Origin: Archangium violaceum | GTDB taxonomy: Bacteria > Myxococcota > Myxococcia > Myxococcales > Myxococcaceae | NCBI RefSeq assembly: GCF_016859125.1 | Contig: NZ_CP069338.1 | Span: forward strand, 372,001-436,000 | Direction: 5' to 3' | DNA length: 64,000 nucleotides | Shown: in pieces, positions 32,728 to 42,890 of the stretch | Layout of the letters: the number at the start of each line of letters is the position of its first letter | Numbering within the stretch: position 1 is the first letter of the stretch | The notes under the pieces: model-generated | Told to the model about the DNA's origin: nothing | The model's database searches: none | Seen by the model: only the letters and a program-made list of their open reading frames with translations | Position numbers and translations under genes: made by a program

Positions 32728-33753
32728 TCACCGGGGGCGTCGTCCGAGCATGGGACGGCGCCCCTTTCTCGTTCCCACGTCGTGCTGCTCGTGCCGCACG
32801 AAGGCGGGCTCCTCCCCGGACTCGGTGGGGCCCAGCTCGTCGAGCGGATCACACGGCTCGCCCCCGCGCCACAGCTCGAAGTGCAGGTGCACGCCGGTGG
32901 CCAGGCCCGTCTTGCCGGCCGCGCCCACCACGTCACCCGGCTCGAGCACCTCGCCCGGCGTCACCAGCACGCGCGACAGGTGGCTGTACCGGGTGGTGAC
33001 ATCCCCCTCGTGCTGGATGACCACCTGGTTGCCATGGGCGCCGTTCCACCCGGCGCGGATCACCACGCCCTTCGCCGCGGCCGAGACGAGCTGGCCCCGC
33101 TTCGCCGCCAGATCCAGGCCCAGATGATCCCTCTCCTTGCCGGTGATGGGGTGCACCCGGCTGCCGAAGACACTGGTGATGATGACCGGGTCCACCGGCC
33201 AGGTGAACCGAAGGGGCTGCTTCGAGGGCTTGAGCTGCAGGCGGCGCAGCTGGGCCATGCGCACCGCGAGCAGGTCCACCCGGGCGAGCACCGCGTCGGC
33301 CAGGTCCCCGGGGATGTCCCCGTAGGCGCGCGCGTCCTCCTCCAGCTCGGCCTCCAGCGTCACCCGGGCACGCACCACGTCCAGCGAGGACGTCTTGCGC
33401 GCGGATTGCCGGAGGAAGGCATCCAGGGTGGCGTTCATCCGCCGCCAGTTGTCCGCCTGCTCGCGCGGCATGGCACTGCCCCGCGGCACCTGCGCCCGTG
33501 AGGCGCGTGCCAGCGTGGCGAACTCCGCCAGCGCGGCCCGGAGCTCCATCGAAGCCGGGGCGTCCAGCAGCGGCTCGGCCTTCTTCGTCCGCAGCATGCC
33601 CTCGCCCGTGCCCTCCTGGGACGCACCCGCCGACAGGTCGGCCGGAGGCGACGTGTCCTCGGCATACAGCTCGTCGAAACTCATCTTCTGGCGCGCGCGA
33701 GGGGCGGCACACGCAGACAGGACGAGCAGCATGAGGGCGGCGAGACGACGCAA
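32728..33753 (-). CDS. M23-family metallopeptidase lipoprotein
   Basis: 341 residues. The lipobox is LSAC (Cys15). A helical middle region (about 60-175) is likely a coiled coil linking to the LytM/M23 endopeptidase domain (about 180-305). The zinc motif HLGLD (about 209-213) and HLHFE (about 291-295) are both present, so it is probably an active peptidoglycan hydrolase rather than an EnvC-type activator. A basic C-tail (GTRKGRRPMLGRRPR) ends the protein and its DNA forms the HU terminator. It has no close same-strand neighbours. Confidence 0.9.
   Translation of the reverse strand: MRRLAALMLLVLSACAAPRARQKMSFDELYAEDTSPPADLSAGASQEGTGEGMLRTKKAEPLLDAPASMELRAALAEFATLARASRAQVPRGSAMPREQADNWRRMNATLDAFLRQSARKTSSLDVVRARVTLEAELEEDARAYGDIPGDLADAVLARVDLLAVRMAQLRRLQLKPSKQPLRFTWPVDPVIITSVFGSRVHPITGKERDHLGLDLAAKRGQLVSAAAKGVVIRAGWNGAHGNQVVIQHEGDVTTRYSHLSRVLVTPGEVLEPGDVVGAAGKTGLATGVHLHFELWRGGEPCDPLDELGPTESGEEPAFVRHEQHDVGTRKGRRPMLGRRPR
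32734..32764 (+). terminator. HU intrinsic terminator embedded in the convergent M23 gene
   Basis: 12-pair stem GGGGCG-T-CGTCC / GGACG-G-CGCCCC (one G-T pair) with a 7-base loop gagcatg, followed by TTTCTC. It begins 38 bases after the HU stop and lies within the last codons of the M23 gene. Confidence 0.7.
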
Positions 33754-33959
33754 GGCGTCGCCAGTCTACCAACGCCCCGGGAATCGGCCAGCCAGCCGCC
33801 GAGTGGAGGCGGACCCACGCCTCGTCAATGTCCGGAACGGAACGGGGTCCGGCTCCCGTGCCGAGCCGCCTGGCCCCTGGAGGAGCACTCCACCGGGGTG
33901 TCCTGCGAGGTAGTGGAATCCTCTTTACGTCGCAGGTCGGTCTGGCATACAGCGGTCAC

Positions 33960-34643
33960 GTGGCACGCGAGACAGTGGAGTCGAAACGGAAACGGGCGGT
34001 GGAGGTGTTGGACCGGCTGGAGCGGGCCATGCCGGACGTGCGCATCGAGCTGGACTACCGCACCCCGTTGGAGCTGCTGGTGGCGGTCATCCTCTCCGCG
34101 CAGTGCACGGACAAGCGGGTCAACCTGGTCACCCCCGCCCTCTTCCAACGCTTCCCGGACGCGCGCGCGTACGCCCAGGCGGATGTCGGCGAGGTGGAGC
34201 CGTTCATCCAGTCATGCGGCCTGTACCGCGCCAAGGCGAAGAACATCATCGCGGCGGCCCAGGCCCTGGTGAAGGAGCACGGCGGAGAGGTGCCTCGCTC
34301 CCGGGCCGCGCTGGAGCAACTGCCCGGCGTGGGCCGCAAGACGGCCGGCGTGGTGTGCATCCACCTGGGAGGCGATGACGCCTTCCCGGTGGACACCCAC
34401 GTGAAGCGGCTGGCCTACCGGCTGGGCTTCACCCGTCACGAGGATCCGGACAAGGTGGAGGAGGACATGCAGGCCCTGCTGCCATCGGAGCGGTGGGCCA
34501 AGGGCCACCAGCTCCTGGTCTGGCACGGACGGAGGACCTGCCTGGCGAGGGCGCCCGCGTGCGAGCGCTGCCCCGTGGCGGACCTCTGCCCCAGGAAGGG
34601 CGTGACGACTAGACCGACAGCCGGTCCTCGCGAGACGCCTTGA
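33960..34643 (+). CDS. nth: Endonuclease III (DNA glycosylase/AP lyase)
   Basis: 227-residue base-excision repair enzyme removing oxidised pyrimidines. The helix-hairpin-helix LPGVGRKTAG contains the catalytic Lys127, and VDTHVKR the catalytic Asp145. The 4Fe-4S cluster Cys are C194, C201, C204 and C210 (C-x6-C-x2-C-x5-C), exactly the Nth spacing. The GTG at 33960 gives a length near E. coli Nth (211); an upstream extension lacks conservation. The final 35 bases overlap the convergent def gene. Confidence 0.93.
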   Translation: MARETVESKRKRAVEVLDRLERAMPDVRIELDYRTPLELLVAVILSAQCTDKRVNLVTPALFQRFPDARAYAQADVGEVEPFIQSCGLYRAKAKNIIAAAQALVKEHGGEVPRSRAALEQLPGVGRKTAGVVCIHLGGDDAFPVDTHVKRLAYRLGFTRHEDPDKVEEDMQALLPSERWAKGHQLLVWHGRRTCLARAPACERCPVADLCPRKGVTTRPTAGPRETP

Positions 34644-35130
34644 CGCGCTTCATCCGCTTGCGGATGAGCTCGCGCTTGAGCGTGGAGACGTGATCCACGA
34701 AGACGGTGCCGTTGAGGTGATCCGTCTCGTGCTGCACCGCGATGGCCAGCAGCCCGTCACACGTCAGCGTCTGCTCACGGCCCTCGGGGTCGAGGAACTT
34801 CACCGTCACCACCGCGGCGCGATCCACGTCCTCGGCCTCGCCGGGGATGGACAGGCAGCCCTCGGTGTAGGTCGTCTTCCCCTCCAGGGCGATGATCTCC
34901 GGGTTGATCATCGCCAGCGGCTGGGACTCGGGCTGGCGCGGACGGGTGTCCAGGACGATGACCCGCTGCAGGATGCCCACCTGCGGCGCGGCGAGCCCCA
35001 CGCCATCGGCGGCGTACATGGTCTCGAACATGTCCTTGACCAGCGTGCGGATGGAATCGTCGACCCGGGCCACCGGCCTGGCTTTCTGCTTCAGGATGGG
35101 ATCGGGCCAGATGAGGATTTCGCGAACCAT
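34609..35130 (-). CDS. def: Peptide deformylase
   Basis: 173-residue metalloenzyme removing the N-formyl group from nascent proteins. The three signature motifs are intact: GVGLAAPQ (43-50), EGCLS with metal-binding Cys92, and QHETDH with His134, Glu135 and His138. It is type-I-like. The start at 35130 has GAGGGG before the ATG. No fmt gene is seen next to it, unlike the common def-fmt pair. The 3' end overlaps nth. Confidence 0.95.
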   Translation of the reverse strand: MVREILIWPDPILKQKARPVARVDDSIRTLVKDMFETMYAADGVGLAAPQVGILQRVIVLDTRPRQPESQPLAMINPEIIALEGKTTYTEGCLSIPGEAEDVDRAAVVTVKFLDPEGREQTLTCDGLLAIAVQHETDHLNGTVFVDHVSTLKRELIRKRMKRVKASREDRLSV

Positions 35131-35391
35131 GGAGCCCCTCTTAACTCCCTGGTCACGGACGGGCAACCCGCCCCAGGCCCCCCCATGTGCCCCGCCTGTC
35201 ACCCGCTCGGGCAGGGCCCCCTGCCCCTCCAGCCGGATTCCCGAGCCGTGCTCCCGACTTCCAGGGAATCCGGTCCCTCACATCGAGGGCCGTGACAAAA
35301 AAGCAGCCGGGGTTCTTTACCAACGGGTGAGAGGAGGAGCACACTGAGCCAGTCCGGATTCCCCGGTAGGTCGGTTCAGGAGGAATTCGCC

Positions 35392-36105
35392 GTGCTCCGG
35401 AAGATCGCGCTGCTGTCCACCTCACTGCTCTACGCCTGTGGGAGCTACTCGTCGCCCGCCCCGAATATCGTCTCCATCGAGCCCGAGGAGGTGGTGAGCG
35501 GCGAGGCGTCGACGATCACCCTCGAGCTGGACGCGCCACTCCCCGTGAAGGTGGACTACGGCCAGCGGACGGCGACGGTGTTGACGCCGACCGTCCTGAT
35601 CGGCGGGCAGAAGGTGGCCATCGCGCTCCTGGAGCAAAAGGGGATGCTGCGGGCCAACGTGCCCACGAACCTCCCGGCCGGGCCCCAGGAGGTCCGGCTG
35701 GAGATGGAGGACGGAAACGAGTCGCACCGGGAACAGGAACTCACGGTGCTCCCGGTCCCTCCCGAGCTGAGTCCCCTCACCGGGGACACCGACCCGGGGA
35801 ATGACACGCCGACCGCCCCCGAGATCACCGGACTGAGCATCGACCCCATCGCGGACCAGGTTCGCGACGTCCCGTTCGTCATCACCCTGCGGGCCGAGGG
35901 CCCGGCGGCGGCCAGCTTCGCGGGGCAGGTGCAGATCTCCTCCAACAAGGGGCGCGTCAGCCCGAACCTGAGCAACGCCTTCAGTCAGGGCGTGCGGCGG
36001 GAACAGGTCGTCCTCGACAAACAGGGCGGACAGGTCGTGCTCACCGTGCGCGTCGGCAAGGACATCGTCGCCCAGTCCAACCCCTTCAAGGTCGCGCCGA
36101 AGTAG
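35392..36105 (+). CDS. Lipoprotein with IPT/TIG-like domain
   Basis: 237 residues from a GTG start with a near-perfect AGGAGG 8 bases upstream. The signal ends in lipobox LLYAC (Cys16). The first half (about 25-115) reads like an IPT/TIG-type Ig fold (NIVSIEPEEVVSGEASTITLEL, ANVPTNLPAGPQEVRLEM), then a Pro/Thr/Asp linker and a second beta-rich domain (ITGLSIDPIADQVRDVPFVITLRA). No specific family. Probably an outer-membrane surface lipoprotein. It converges on the large scaffold gene with a 19-base gap. Confidence 0.8.
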   Translation: MLRKIALLSTSLLYACGSYSSPAPNIVSIEPEEVVSGEASTITLELDAPLPVKVDYGQRTATVLTPTVLIGGQKVAIALLEQKGMLRANVPTNLPAGPQEVRLEMEDGNESHREQELTVLPVPPELSPLTGDTDPGNDTPTAPEITGLSIDPIADQVRDVPFVITLRAEGPAAASFAGQVQISSNKGRVSPNLSNAFSQGVRREQVVLDKQGGQVVLTVRVGKDIVAQSNPFKVAPK

Positions 36106-36124
36106 GACGGGCCGCCGCCGCCAC

Positions 36125-39100
36125 TCAGTCCATCAGGCTGCGAGCATACTCCTCGCGCAGCCGATCATCCGCGAGCGCCCGCGCCGCCTCGGACAGGGCG
36201 TTGGAGATCTGCTGGGCGCGGTGCTGGAGCGCCGGATCCGGATGCCCCGCGAAGCGCAGCGGGTGGAACTCGGCGGCCAGCAACGCGAAGGCACGCTTCA
36301 CCTCCTCGCTGCCCGCGCCGCGCGAGAGCCCGAGCACGGTGAAGTAGTCCGCGTCCTGGATCTCCTCGAACTTGGACTCGAGCCGGCGGACGTCCAGCTC
36401 GCCCGGAGCCTCCTGCGCGGAGGAGACCGCCGGGGCGGGCCGGAGGGTGATGAGGCCCAGGGCGCGCGCGACCGCGAGCACCTTGAGGGCGCTGTCCTGG
36501 GGCATGCCCGCGCCGAGCAGGAGCTGCTCGAGCGACTGCTCGCCATCGACCTCCTCCAGGAGCCGCAGCTCGCGCGAGGACAGCCCGAAGGCCTCCGGCG
36601 AGGGCTCGGGCTCACCCCGGACGACCACCGCGCGCAGGCCGCCGGCGGCCTCCACGAGGGAATCGGAGGAGACACCGTTGCGCAGGGACTCGGCCAACAG
36701 GTGCAGCAGCGGCCGGGTGGAGGCGGCGAGGGCCACCTCGTGCGGCGGCGGCTCCTCGGTGAGCCGGTACAGAGAGGAGGACTCCCCGAGCGCGTCCAGG
36801 GCGACCTGCTCGGTGTAGCGCTGCACGAGCGGGACGACCTCGTTCTCCCGCAGGTAGCCGCGGCCACGCATGGCGTCGATGAGAGCCCCCGTGGAGGCAC
36901 CACGCACCAGACGCAGCTCGTTCTCCTGGCGCGCGTCGATGAGCCCATCCGCCCGGGCGCGCTCCACGAGCGACTCGTCGGGGGCGGAGGACACCGCGCC
37001 CACCAGCACCCCGTCCTTCAACCAGAGGATGCGCAGGGCCCCGGTCACCTTGAGCTCGAGGCGCACCTGGGCACGCGCCTCCTGGAGCCGGGTGACGAGC
37101 CGCGCGAGCCCCTCCTGGTTGACGCTACCGCTGCGGGGGATGTCCACCTCGAACCGGCCGGGAACCTGGAGCGAGACGATCGCCGCGCGGGCCCGGGATG
37201 CCATCTCCTCGGCCTCGGCGCGGGCCTTCGCGAGGGCCGCGTCCGTCTCCGCGCGCACCCGGGTGACCGTCGCCTCGGCATCACGGACGGCCTTCTCCTC
37301 GGCCTCGCGGCGGGCCCGCTCGGCGCGGGCGAGGCGCTCGGCCAACTCCGCTTCCGCCTGGGCCCTCGCGGCCTCGAGCCGCTCCACTTCCTGGGAGAGG
37401 AACTCCCGCTCCTCGCGCTCCTGGGCCAGCGTCCGCGCGAGTTGCTCCGCTTCCTCCCGGGCCTCGCGAAGCTGGCGGGAGAGCCGCGCCTCCAGCTCCG
37501 AGCGCTCGCGGGAAAGCTCCTCGCGCGCCTGGGACTCCGCTTCCACCCGGGCCTGGGCCTCGGCATGAGCCTGCTCGGAGGCCTCGGCGCGCGCCTCCGC
37601 CTCCGCGCGCGCCTGCTTCTCTTCCGCGGCGCGAGCCTGCAGGGCGGCGCGAGCCTTCTCCACGCGCTCGAGCCGGGCCTCCATCTCGACACGAAGCCGC
37701 TCCATGTTGGCGGCCCGCGTCTCCGCGTCGACCCGTGCCCGCTCCAACTCCTCGGACTGCTCGTCCGACGTGGTCCGCGCCTTCTCCGCGCGCTCGAGCC
37801 GGGCCTCCAGCTCGACGCGCTGCCGCTCCATGTTGGCGGCCCGCGTCTCCGCGTCGACCCGTGCCCGCTCCAACTCCTCGGCCTGCCCGAGCGCCTCGGT
37901 GCGCTCCTGCTCCGCCTGGGAAGCGCGCGCTTCCGCCCGGGCCCGGGCCCGCGACTCCGCGTCGGCCCGCGATTCCGCCTCGGAGCGCGCCTTGTCCGCC
38001 GCGTCGGCCCGCGCTTCCGCGTCGGTACGGGCCTTCATCTCCGCCTGCACACGCGAATCCGCGTTGGAGCGCGCGCGTGCTTCCACCTCCGCCCGCGCCT
38101 TCTTCTCGGCGGCGACACGGGCCTCGGCCTCCGCCCGGGCCTTCTCCGCGGCCTCGGCTCGCGCCTCCGCTTCCGCCCGGGCCTTCGATTCCTTCTCGGC
38201 GCGCGCCGTCACGTCCTTGCGCGCCTTCGCCTCTCCATGCGCCCGGGCCTCCCACTCCTTGCGGGACTTCGTCTCCGCCTCGGCCCGTGCCTCCGCCTCC
38301 GCCCGCGCGGCCCTCTCCGCCTCGGCCCGTGCCTCCGCCTCCGCCCGCGCGGCCCTCTCCGCCTCCACCCGGGCTTCCACCCGGGCCCTCGCCTCCGCCT
38401 CGGACGCGGCCCGCTGCTCCGCCTCGGTGCGCCGCCGCTCCTGCTCCTCGGCCCGCTGCTCCGCCTCGGTGCGCCGCCGCTCCTGCTCCTCGGCCCGCTG
38501 CTCCGCCTCGGTGCGCCGCCGCTCCTGCTCCTCGGCCTTCGCACGCCATTCCGCGAGCTGCCGCTGCAGCTCCTCGAGCCCCTCGGCTTCCTTCTCCTGA
38601 CGCCGCTGGGCCTCGGCGGTACGTGCCTGCTCGAGCTCCGACTCCCGCGCCCGCGCCGCCTCCAACTGCCGCTCCACCTCGAGCCGCAGCGAGGCCTCGA
38701 GTCCCCGCTCCTCCGCGAGCGCCGCGAGCCGGCTCCGCTGCGCCTCGGCCTCGTGCCGCAGCGACTCCTCCCGGGCCCACGCCTCCTGCTTCAGCCGCTC
38801 CAGCTCGGAGCGCAGCGAGGCCTCGTTCGCGCGCGCCGCCTCCACCTCGCTCCGCAGCGACTCCTCCCGCGCGTTCGGCGCATCCGCCTGCTTCTCCAGC
38901 GAGGACCGGAGCTCCGCCACGAGCGTCTCGAGCTCCGACGCCTTGCTCTCCGCCTCTCGCCGGCGCGCCACCGCCCCATCGCGCTCGGACAGAATCTGCG
39001 AGATCCGCCGCTCCGCCCGCATCAGGCGCACTTCCAGCACCGCGATCGCGTCCTCCGCCGGAAGCGACTCCACATCCCGCGCACCCGCCGCTCCAGGCAC

Positions 39101-40462
39101 GGGCCGCAGCGGGAACTTCGACGTGGTCTCCGCCACGCCCCTCGGCACGGGACGGGCCTCCGCCACCGGCTCGTTCTTCACCGGCTCGCCGCGCGGCCCC
39201 CCGGTGGACTCGGAGCCGAACCAGTCCGAGCCCACGCTCTCCTGGTGCGGCTCCTCCCATCCATCCGGCGCATCGCCCTCCGGCGGCAGCGGCGCGTCCT
39301 CCGGAACGGGCTCCAGGTCCTCCGGGGGAAGGGCCGCCGTGCGCACCGTCGGGGTCGGCTCCAGATCGAAGAACCCCTCCTCCCCGAGCTGGGGCGAGGC
39401 ATTCCCGGACGACTCCGCCCGCTCCCGCGCCAACGCCGCTTCGATCTCCAGCTGCGCGAGGCGCTCGGCCTCCGCACGCGCCTCCGCCTCGATGTCGACG
39501 ACCTTCACCGGGGGCAGCTCGGGCAGCGCGGACAGGGGCTCGACGGACTCCGGCACCGGCGCCGCGTCCACCACGGGCCCCATCTCGACCGGAGACACCG
39601 CGGTGATGGTGGGAATCGCCGAGCCCATCGCGGGGGTCCGCGCGAAGAGCCCCGCCGACGACACGGGCAGCGAGGGCTCCTCCTTCTTCAACCGCCGCCG
39701 GGCAGCGGCCTCGCGACGCACGTCGTCCTCCATGCGCCGCATCTCGTCCTCGTCGGGCCCGGGGGGCGTCACCACCGGAACCTGGCCCGACACCACCACC
39801 GCCTGCTCCGTCGCGCCGAAGAGCGACTCCGCCTCGTCCCCGGAATCCTGCTCGGTCAGCCCCGGAACCCTCGGGATCTCGGCCGTGACCACCGCCTGCT
39901 CCGTCTGGGAGAACAGATCCTCCGCATCCAGGGAGGACGGGGACTGCCGGGCCCCTTCGGGCTTGGGCAGATCATCGAAGAGCGCGTGCTCCAACGCGGC
40001 GTTGCGGCTGGACACGGAGGACTTCTGGACGAGCCCCGGCGGCCCGGAGCGCGCGGGGACCGGCTCGGGAGCCGGAGGTTCCACCTCGTCCTTCACCGCG
40101 TACCAGGCCTCCGGGCCCGCGGGCGAGTTGATGACCGCGGCCACCTGCTCCATGAAGCCGGAGCCATCCAGGGGCAGCGGAGCCACCGGGGCTGCGCTGC
40201 CGGGGACGGGCTCGCCAAGCAGCAGCACGCGCGCGAGCCGCATGTCCGGGTGCAGCCCCAGTTCCTCCAGGACGAGGTGGCCGCGACCACTCTCCACCCC
40301 CGGTGCCAGGATGATGAGCACGGGCAGGTGATGGCCAAAGGCGATGAGGGCGTCCGCCACGGAGGTAGCGAGAATGACCTCATAGCCCTCGCGCGCGAGC
40401 AGGCGGCGCACGGTGGCGATGGTGGCGATGTCGTCGTGTACGAGGAGGACCGATTCGGCCAT
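36125..40462 (-). CDS. Giant pseudo-receiver / coiled-coil / DUF4388 / degenerate J-domain protein
   Basis: 1445 residues. Residues 1-115 form a CheY-like receiver ([19 protein letters not shown]) whose phosphoacceptor position reads [11 protein letters not shown], with Ala in place of Asp. An acidic, Pro-rich linker (about 120-460) twice carries the motif (D/S)LFxxTEQAVV (about 180 and 210). Residues about 465-1095 are an uninterrupted coiled coil rich in Ala, Glu and Arg. A DUF4388 (PATAN)-like domain follows (about 1100-1330; [36 protein letters not shown]), and the end (about 1360-1445) is J-domain-like but has HPL where HPD is required. AglZ and FrzS of Myxococcus share the pseudo-receiver plus coiled-coil plan. 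It starts 18 bases after priA. Confidence 0.9.
37701..37880. repeat. Direct repeat of 126 bases within the coiled-coil coding region
   Basis: A block starting TCCATGTTGGCGGCCCGC at 37701 recurs at 37827, giving a 42-residue duplication ([18 protein letters not shown] and following) inside the coiled coil. Confidence 0.6.
38410..38537. repeat. Triplicated 42-bp coding repeat
   Basis: Three near-identical 42-base units (gctccgcctcggtgcgccgc and following) encoding the 14-residue unit [14 protein letters not shown]. Immediately adjacent (38280-38360) are similar ~48-base repeats encoding [12 protein letters not shown]. Confidence 0.7.
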
Positions 40463-40480: not shown

Positions 40481-42724
40481 CTACAGCATGGCCGCTGGAT
40501 CCACGTCGATCGTGACACGCACGGCGGACGGAATGTCGACCAGCTTCGCCTCCAGGCGGGCGAGCAACGGGGCGAGCGCCGCGTGGGTAGGGGCCTTGAG
40601 GAGCAACTGCCACCGGGTGCGACCCCGGATGCGCGAGATGGGGGCGATGGCCGGCCCCAGCAGACGCACGCCCCACGAGGCCGGGGGCATGTTGCGGCCG
40701 ATGAAGTCCCCGAGGAACCGGGCCACGCTGGCGGTCTGCTCGGCGCTCTCGCCCTCGAGCCGCACCGCCGCCATGCGCGTGTAGGGCGGCCAGGCGAGCA
40801 CCTTGCGCCGCTCCAGCTCCCGCTCGGAGAAGCCGTCGAAGTCGTGGGTGAGCACGCGCTTCACCGGATCCGCCTCTGGGTTGTACGTCTGCACGAGCAC
40901 CCGCCCCGGATCCTTCCCGCGTCCGGCGCGGCCGGCCACCTGGGTGAGGAGATGGAAGGTGCGCTCGGAGGCGCGGAAGTCGGGGATGGCCAGCGAGGTG
41001 TCCGCCATCACCACGCACACCAGCGTCACCCCGGGGAAGTCGTGTCCCTTGGCCACCATCTGCGTGCCCACCAGGACGTCGATCTCCCGGCGGGCGAAGG
41101 ACGCGAGCATCTCCGTGAGGCGCTCGGCGCTGGAGGCCGAGTCCCTGTCGAGCCGGGCCACGCGGGCCTGGGGAATCCGCTCGGCGACCTCGGCCTCCAC
41201 GCGCTCGGTGCCAATGCCCATCTTGAGCAGCGGCCCGGTGCACTCGCGGCAGTGCTCGGGCACGGGGTGGGCCACGCCGCAGTAGTGGCACACCAGCCGG
41301 TTCTGCGAGCGGTGGTAGGTGAGGCACACGTCGCAATCGGAGCACTTCACCGAGGTGCCGCACACCTCGCAGATGAGGAAGGTGCTGTGGCCGCGGCGGT
41401 TGAGGAAGAGGATGACCTGCTGGCCGCGCCCGATGGTCTCCGCCATGGCGTCGAGCAGTGGCGCGGAGAGGATGGGCGCCTCCTCCTGCACGAGCGGCTC
41501 GCGGGGGCGCTCCTGGCGCAGATCCACCAGCTCGATGGTGGGCATGGGCCGGTCATCGACGCGGTTCTTGAGCTCCAGCTTGCGGTAGCGACCGCGGCGG
41601 GTGTTCTCGAGCGTCTCCAGCGAGGGCGTAGCCGAGCCGAGCACCACCACGGCCCCGGCCTGCTTGGCACGCACCACGGCCAGGTCGCGCGCCTGGTAGC
41701 GCAGCTTGTCCTCCTGCTTGAAGGAGGGATCATGCTCCTCGTCCACCACGACAAGGCCGAGGTTCTCCACGGGGGCGAACACCGCCGAGCGCACGCCCAC
41801 GGCGATGCGCACCGTGCCCTTGCGCAGGGCCTGCCAGTGGAAGAGGCGCTCGCGGTCCTTGAGGGCCGAGTGCAGCACGGCCACGTCACCGCCGAAGCGG
41901 CTGCGGAAGCGGCCCACGAGCTGCGGCGTGAGGGCGATCTCCGGCACCAGGATGAGGCTGCCCCTGCCCCGCTCGAGGTTCCGCTCCACGGCGCGCAGGT
42001 ACACCTCGGTCTTGCCGCTGCCGGTGACACCGTGGAGGAGGAAGGGCTGGAAGCCCCCGGCGTCGATGGCCGAGTGGAGCTCCAGCACCGCGGCGGCCTG
42101 CTCGGGGGTGAGCTTCTCGGGACGGCCTTGAGCGAGCCCCTCCTTCACGCCCGGGGCGATGACCTCCTCGTCGATGCGGACGAAGCCCCGCTCGACGAGC
42201 TTGCGCAGCGTCTCGCGCGCGCCGGGGATGGCGTGGGCCACCTCCTCGATGGGGGCGCGGCCTCCCACGGCGAGGAGATAGGCCAGCGCGGCGGACTGAG
42301 CGGGGGCGCGGCGGAGGACGGCGGGGGCCTCGGCGACGAGCGCCACGGCGAACTCCTGCACGTCCGGCTTCGCCTCCTTCTCCTCCTCGGCCTTGGTGAG
42401 CCCGGGAGGCAGCGCGCTCTTGATGACCTCGCCGAGCGGGTAGCGGTAATGCTCGGCGGCGAAGCGCAGGAGCGCGATGAGATCCGGCGGGAGCGACGGC
42501 GAGTCCTCGAGCACCTTCATGATGGGCTTGAGCTTGACGCTCTCGCCATCGGGAGGAGGCGCGGCCGGCCCGAGGAAGAAGCCGAGCGACATGCTGCTGC
42601 CGAAGGGCACGAGGATGCGCTGGCCCGGCGACAGACGCCCGGAGAGGCCGTCGGGGACGACATAGGTGAACTCGCCCCGGACGGGACGGCCAACGGCGAC
42701 TGAGGCGAGGTTCGAGGGGCTCAC
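40481..42724 (-). CDS. priA: Primosomal protein N' (PriA helicase)
   Basis: 747-residue replication-restart helicase. The N-terminal DNA-binding domain (about 1-100, RGEFTYVVPDGL) is followed by Walker A GVTGSGKTE (about 231), DEEHD (Walker B), and an eight-Cys zinc region (CEVCGTSVKCSDCDVCLTYH, CHYCG, CREC). QVAGRAGRGKDPGRVLVQT is helicase motif VI. The GTG at 42724 was chosen because it places FTYVVP at the family position; a longer ATG start at 42808 adds 28 residues without conservation. No Shine-Dalgarno is evident. The scaffold gene downstream starts 18 bases after the stop, suggesting co-transcription. Confidence 0.93.
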   Translation of the reverse strand: MSPSNLASVAVGRPVRGEFTYVVPDGLSGRLSPGQRILVPFGSSMSLGFFLGPAAPPPDGESVKLKPIMKVLEDSPSLPPDLIALLRFAAEHYRYPLGEVIKSALPPGLTKAEEEKEAKPDVQEFAVALVAEAPAVLRRAPAQSAALAYLLAVGGRAPIEEVAHAIPGARETLRKLVERGFVRIDEEVIAPGVKEGLAQGRPEKLTPEQAAAVLELHSAIDAGGFQPFLLHGVTGSGKTEVYLRAVERNLERGRGSLILVPEIALTPQLVGRFRSRFGGDVAVLHSALKDRERLFHWQALRKGTVRIAVGVRSAVFAPVENLGLVVVDEEHDPSFKQEDKLRYQARDLAVVRAKQAGAVVVLGSATPSLETLENTRRGRYRKLELKNRVDDRPMPTIELVDLRQERPREPLVQEEAPILSAPLLDAMAETIGRGQQVILFLNRRGHSTFLICEVCGTSVKCSDCDVCLTYHRSQNRLVCHYCGVAHPVPEHCRECTGPLLKMGIGTERVEAEVAERIPQARVARLDRDSASSAERLTEMLASFARREIDVLVGTQMVAKGHDFPGVTLVCVVMADTSLAIPDFRASERTFHLLTQVAGRAGRGKDPGRVLVQTYNPEADPVKRVLTHDFDGFSERELERRKVLAWPPYTRMAAVRLEGESAEQTASVARFLGDFIGRNMPPASWGVRLLGPAIAPISRIRGRTRWQLLLKAPTHAALAPLLARLEAKLVDIPSAVRVTIDVDPAAML

Positions 42725-42890
42725 GGCGACTGGGGACCACTGTAGCGGCGGCCACTGACACCGGTAGTTTCCGACCGCGCTTCCCACCGCGGGCGCACAG
42801 GGACTCACCCATAGTGGGGCGAGAGGCTCACATGCATCCCGTGGCCATCAACACGGGTCGGAAACTGGACAACCACATTCCCAGGAATTG
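42725..42890. other. Intergenic region between priA and the DUF3883 gene
   Basis: It contains AT-richer sequence with no gene or hairpin I can support. It marks the left edge of the less GC-rich patch that continues to about 45.04 kb. Confidence 0.5.

Follow-up and report, generated by a model that had tools for sequence, protein, structure and literature searches.

In FrzS of Myxococcus xanthus, an N-terminal pseudo-receiver that carries Ala53 in place of the phosphoacceptor Asp and Gly in place of the Thr fails to bind Mg2+, and is followed by an acidic linker and a C-terminal helical rod (PMC1974792). SgmX reaches the pole by binding to this pseudo-receiver (PMC12632262, PMC11580455). AglZ likewise joins a pseudo-receiver to a very long coiled coil (PMC1974792); it is encoded by a separate gene, and no PATAN-winged helix-J head has been described for it. 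SgmX also co-occurs with two PATAN proteins, MXAN_3211 and MXAN_4965 (PMC11580455), which are not equated here with the protein described below. PATAN regulators of Synechocystis such as PixE, which share the PATAN and receiver module with it, bind the pilus motor PilB1; they are described as CheY-like response regulators, with no rod or J-like domain reported (PMC9090330, PMC7690835). The field has found the polarity parts of myxobacteria one by one.

We analysed a 64,000-nucleotide stretch of Archangium violaceum DNA (the window), in which a minus-strand open reading frame encodes a 1445-residue protein whose architecture agrees in outline with that given in a first-pass annotation: a receiver-like domain, a helical rod of about 620 residues, DUF4388 (PATAN) and a C-terminal J-like domain (Table 1). 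The ATG lies 18 nt past the TAG of priA, a spacing already given in that annotation, and is backed by orthologues that align from the same methionine. An antisense frame of 2160 aa is presumably a by-product of the high G+C content.

Table 1. Features of the 1445-residue protein and its neighbours, in window coordinates.
Feature	Position	Strand	Basis
Whole gene, 1445 aa plus stop	36125..40462	-	open reading frame; orthologues in 95/96 Myxococcaceae genomes
Pseudo-receiver domain, aa 1-115	40118..40462	-	Pfam, predicted structure, orthologue receivers
Pro/Glu/Ala-rich linker, probably disordered, aa 116-470	39053..40117	-	composition
Short linear motif (11 residues), aa 156-166, consensus LxxxLF[GD]D	39965..39997	-	conserved in orthologues
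Charged helix (26 residues), aa 237-262	39677..39754	-	conserved, Myxococcaceae only
Helical rod, aa 471-1094	37181..39052	-	composition and periodicity; tandem DNA repeats inside
Mid-rod, aa 646-855, Ala/Arg/Glu-rich, likely charged single alpha-helix	37898..38527	-	composition
DUF4388/PATAN, about aa 1106-1240	36743..37147	-	Pfam, predicted model, orthologue matches
Probable winged helix, about aa 1252-1345	36428..36709	-	model m0ce7fca6cc40 and structure match (borderline)
J-like domain, aa 1371-1441, HPL for HPD	36140..36352	-	Pfam, family profile
priA, primosomal helicase	40481..42808	-	immediately upstream, conserved context
def open frame (peptide deformylase, named from sequence)	34612..35277	-	conserved downstream neighbour

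The likeness to FrzS and AglZ proposed in the first-pass annotation holds as an analogy, FrzS having the same Ala53 and Gly substitutions, and fails as kinship. The genome encodes its own FrzS elsewhere (C1:10504414), a protein of 564 aa with a 91% identical FrzS receiver and no PATAN, winged-helix or J-like domain. A single-sequence PDB search with the present receiver ranked FrzS first, and the family receiver profile gave FrzS 20.5 bits versus up to 27.0 bits for ordinary receivers. Given the separate FrzS and a profile no closer to it than to ordinary receivers, orthology was rejected. The genome also has a frame of 1351 aa, likely AglZ, at G000:C1:11372883; its acceptor residue is not Asp.

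The receiver and J-like ends and their paralogues

The N-terminal 115 residues are predicted to adopt a receiver fold (pLDDT 83), and the best PDB match of the predicted structure is a receiver (Z = 17.5, rmsd 1.6 Å over 111 aa); the Pfam Response_reg model matches aa 5-70 at 14.2 bits, under its cut-off of 30.2. The signature of a phosphorylatable receiver comprises an acceptor Asp, a two-Asp pocket, a Thr/Ser and a Lys. In the predicted fold, the Ala that had been read at the phosphoacceptor position was recovered there as Ala53, with Gly83 at the Thr/Ser position and His9-Asp10-Asp11 in the acid pocket, whose first position is taken by His9. Among 57 orthologues with a complete start, 54 had a recognisable receiver, and in these the acceptor was Ala (31), Ser (11), Gln (6), Asp (3), Gly (2) or Asn (1); like the 92 C-termini considered below, these are related sequences, and the counts do not equal independent losses. 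All three Asp-bearing receivers had a broken acid pocket. Judged by its residues, the receiver fold is not phosphorylatable in the usual way.

At the opposite end, the Pfam DnaJ model matches aa 1372-1439 over its cut-off, and a search with the family profile finds DnaJ structures (7.6e-13). The J-like part of the predicted C-terminal model is of low confidence (pLDDT about 40-60), and it is the sequence profiles that clearly identify a J fold despite this weak model. The HPD tripeptide expected of a J-domain co-chaperone is HPL here, in agreement with the earlier reading, and HPD occurs in only 2 of 92 distinct orthologous C-termini, HPL being the commonest form (47), followed by DPL (10). 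The position equivalent to DnaJ Lys31, on the DnaK-facing helix, holds Glu in this protein and in 85 of the 92, and that of DnaJ Lys26 is mostly acidic or Ala in the orthologues. The lack of defining catalytic residues, which had been noticed at both ends of this one protein, is thus family-wide; the present protein has neither an acceptor Asp nor an intact HPD, the two findings named beforehand as speaking against such a reading. The string 'GHPDP' at aa 1406-1410 might have been a displaced HPD, but it lies off the catalytic position and is not conserved, and was discarded. The sole HPD-intact orthologues, L117 (in genome G138) and L119 (in G136), are deep-branching and may be useful as naturally occurring controls when the loss of J activity is studied; an ancestor with HPD, followed by repeated loss, would fit these two cases. 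A J fold without HPD is also found in Pam16/Tim16, a degenerate J-like protein that pairs with Pam18 in mitochondria, in an unrelated context.

The nearest paralogue in the same genome (L077, 683 aa; E = 1.2e-6 with the C-terminal query) is one of the Myxococcota proteins with the order receiver-PATAN-winged helix-J-TPR, which is that of the present protein apart from the rod and the TPR. In contrast to the present protein, it has an Asp in its receiver, an intact HPD and a TPR tail, and no long rod. Other paralogues in this genome are PATAN-J-TPR or J-TPR proteins in which HPD is present. By this comparison the present protein seems to be an offshoot, one from which catalysis and the TPR tail disappeared and to which a rod was added; we infer this sequence of events.

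These HPD-bearing PATAN and TPR paralogues, encoded in the same genome, suit an alternative in which the protein regulates the chaperone network: its J-like domain would pair or compete with the true J domain of PATAN-J-TPR paralogues, while PATAN would select the client. A J fold kept after loss of HPD and alteration of the DnaK-facing basic residues is what such a regulator might look like, and the two deep-branching orthologues with HPD also agree with it, as does the Nostoc DnaK1/DnaJ3 system, which works with the pilus motor (PMC9239167). The long rod and the pseudo-receiver are left unexplained, and we regard a chaperone regulator as unlikely.

Linker, rod and head

Between the receiver and the rod, usually some 40-65 residues past the receiver, lies a short motif, LxxxLF[GD]D, that was found in 33 of the 54 orthologues against an expectation of 0.2 after local shuffling; the shuffle test was run on related sequences, and the stronger argument is the spread of the motif over six families (f1, f6, f7, f8, f10 and f11). 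It recurs in the otherwise variable linkers of L057, L115, L116, L119, L129 and L135, and L116 has five LF-type copies. The linker of the FrzS encoded in the same genome contains LLDNPFGDSL, which is loosely similar and is given here as a lead only.

Charge recurs along the rod about every 7 residues, and salt bridges at i,i+4 are twice as numerous as after shuffling, a trait of charged single alpha-helices. Few large hydrophobic residues occupy the heptad core positions of aa 646-855, and by composition this middle part is probably a charged single alpha-helix, with the rod not a coiled coil throughout. Of the coiled coil of more than 600 residues proposed earlier, the long helical rod (about 620 aa) stands, and a coiled coil along its whole length probably does not, the mid-rod being poor in large hydrophobic residues. 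Among orthologues, the rod between receiver and PATAN ranges from 81 to 1876 residues. Tandem DNA repeats of 42, 63, 84 and 126 bp lie within the rod (window 37585-38581) and provide a simple route to changes in length; one 42-bp array matches at 100% over about 3 copies, which suggests that the length may have changed recently.

DUF4388 (Pfam PF14332) matches aa 1112-1261 at 17.6 bits, below the cut-off of 25. The orthologues L115 and L139 pass this cut-off (45.3 and 41.3 bits), which makes the assignment safe, and the module named in the first-pass annotation is therefore retained. Between PATAN and the J-like domain, a segment of the model matches a winged-helix structure (Z = 7.7, 3.3 Å, 75 aa; borderline), pointing to a probable winged-helix domain that the annotation did not include. 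Foldseek, run with the C-terminal model, returned nothing at E <= 0.001. A Longin or GTPase-reading fold for PATAN was considered and found unsupported, the NPRL2/3-like Foldseek matches spanning the winged-helix part only.

Distribution and the priA-def neighbourhood

Genomes were searched with the C-terminal 352 residues. A homologue was present in 96 of 96 Myxococcaceae genomes, and in 95 of them the best match was clearly an orthologue by its strength; in G047, which is 78% complete, this query retrieved paralogues only. Myxococcus xanthus has its own orthologue (L015). An order-wide search found orthologues in further families of Myxococcota, and with a broader profile, matches spanning the whole C-terminal length appeared in other classes of the phylum; several families seem to have none. 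The protein is a phylum-level component of Myxococcota and no local oddity, and the search for the same architecture in other Myxococcota, suggested at the outset, found it recurring across the phylum. The impression that the scaffold was new-looking holds in that no description of the protein was found in a limited literature search, so that an earlier one may exist, and fails as to rarity. A contig titled Comamonas sp. KCTC 72670 (BNCN01000002.1, 969,165 bases; L007) carries a Myxococcaceae-type locus, and either its label or its assembly seems to be in error.

Both ends are about 67-76% identical across other Myxococcaceae genera, and a single copy is kept in nearly all genomes, including those of gene-poor Myxococcaceae (2.1-2.7 Mb). 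Purifying selection on the gene is indicated by these sequences. A decayed member of the receiver-PATAN-J-TPR group, under weak constraint and with little function left, would account for the missing catalytic residues at both ends and for the free variation of rod length and linker; ends that are about 70-75% identical between genera, near PriA, and single-copy retention even in genomes of 2.1 Mb make such a signalling remnant extremely improbable.

Near-universal retention, reduced genomes included, suggests a core role, and long charged helical rods are common among bacterial cytoskeletal proteins. Both points would suit a scaffold of the division site or of cell shape with no tie to motility, but no division or envelope genes adjoin the gene, and we consider this unlikely.

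Four Pfam domains or regions specific to PriA identify the upstream gene as priA. Both genes were located in 51 loci, and in every one of these they share a strand and the gene, with its full domain order, comes downstream of priA; the two frames are at most 350 nt apart in 48. Pairwise, the head and PriA diverge in parallel (r = 0.94, against at most 0.19 in 500 permutations), indicating that both genes descended together. The two genes have come apart in a few loci (L068, L071 and L141), and priA is 4 kb away in L060 and L084. On the other side, 19 of 31 representatives have def as the next gene downstream, in the same orientation. It directly adjoins the gene in most relatives and is 851 nt off here, with 35278-36124 between them. 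An Endonuclease III-like gene (HhH-GPD, Fe-S motif) lies near def on the plus strand (33735-34640), and other Myxococcales have homologous frames near this locus.

The gene order priA-def-fmt is common in bacteria, and the simplest account places an insertion of the gene, between priA and def, at an early stage of the phylum. The position behind priA, which the first-pass annotation called unexpected, is explained by such an insertion into an old operon. Since this position is inherited, the linkage is no sign of a role with PriA, and its weight as a mark of a PriA partner was downgraded once def proved to be the next gene. A rod linked to replication or genome maintenance and acting with PriA could draw on the conserved order, on the correlated divergence and on a winged-helix fold that could bind DNA. 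The inherited priA-def context and the broken linkages weigh against it, however, as does the weakness of the winged-helix match, in a fold that often binds protein, and a PriA-linked role appears quite unlikely.

A probable scaffold, possibly at the cell pole

Two conserved ends joined by a freely varying rod, with catalysis lost and folds kept, support a scaffold, so that the earlier idea of a scaffold with inactive ends is well supported. The protein is very probably a non-enzymatic cytoplasmic scaffold or tether. Our main reading, to which we give a probability of roughly 0.4, is that this scaffold is located most likely at the cell pole and links a polarity or signalling protein to the type IV pilus or motility machinery. 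In this model, one end would recruit a first set of partners through the LF[GD]D motif together with the pseudo-receiver, the rod would dimerise at its coiled-coil parts and space or cluster the two ends, and the PATAN-winged-helix-J head would dock another partner. The polar site, and with it the coupling to pilus or motility machinery, is put forward tentatively, by analogy with FrzS (SgmX binding and coiled-coil polar targeting) and with the cyanobacterial PATAN-PilB1 pair.

A more specific version would make the protein a core scaffold of Myxococcota that predates gliding. PATAN and a J-like domain independent of DnaK would form its docking head, possibly pairing with the true J domains of PATAN-J-TPR paralogues, and MglA/FrzS polarity would be linked to the pilus motor by way of the pseudo-receiver and LF[GD]D; we hold this version to be improbable as a whole. 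MglA was present in 35 of 35 genomes checked, whether the gene was present or absent, PilB and FrzS-like receivers also occur in genomes without it, and the 2.1-2.7 Mb Myxococcaceae genomes keep the gene together with MglA and a FrzS-like receiver. Being nearly universal in the order, these components make co-occurrence uninformative. The earlier idea that DUF4388 might read a small GTPase gains no support from the presence of MglA, and published PATAN proteins point to the motor PilB instead (PMC9090330, PMC7690835).

If the polar scaffold is correct, the protein would be a nearly universal, so far undescribed component of myxobacterial cell organisation. The family also offers a natural series of receivers and J domains that gave up catalysis and remained folded and conserved, which makes the binding partners of pseudo-receivers and pseudo-J domains directly testable, and the orthologue in Myxococcus xanthus provides a practical test organism. 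Elsewhere in the Archangium genome (L083, G000:C1:6664000-6682000), two more frames, of 899 and 1599 aa, match DUF4388 and are close neighbours; the shorter also bears a receiver with Asp (L155).
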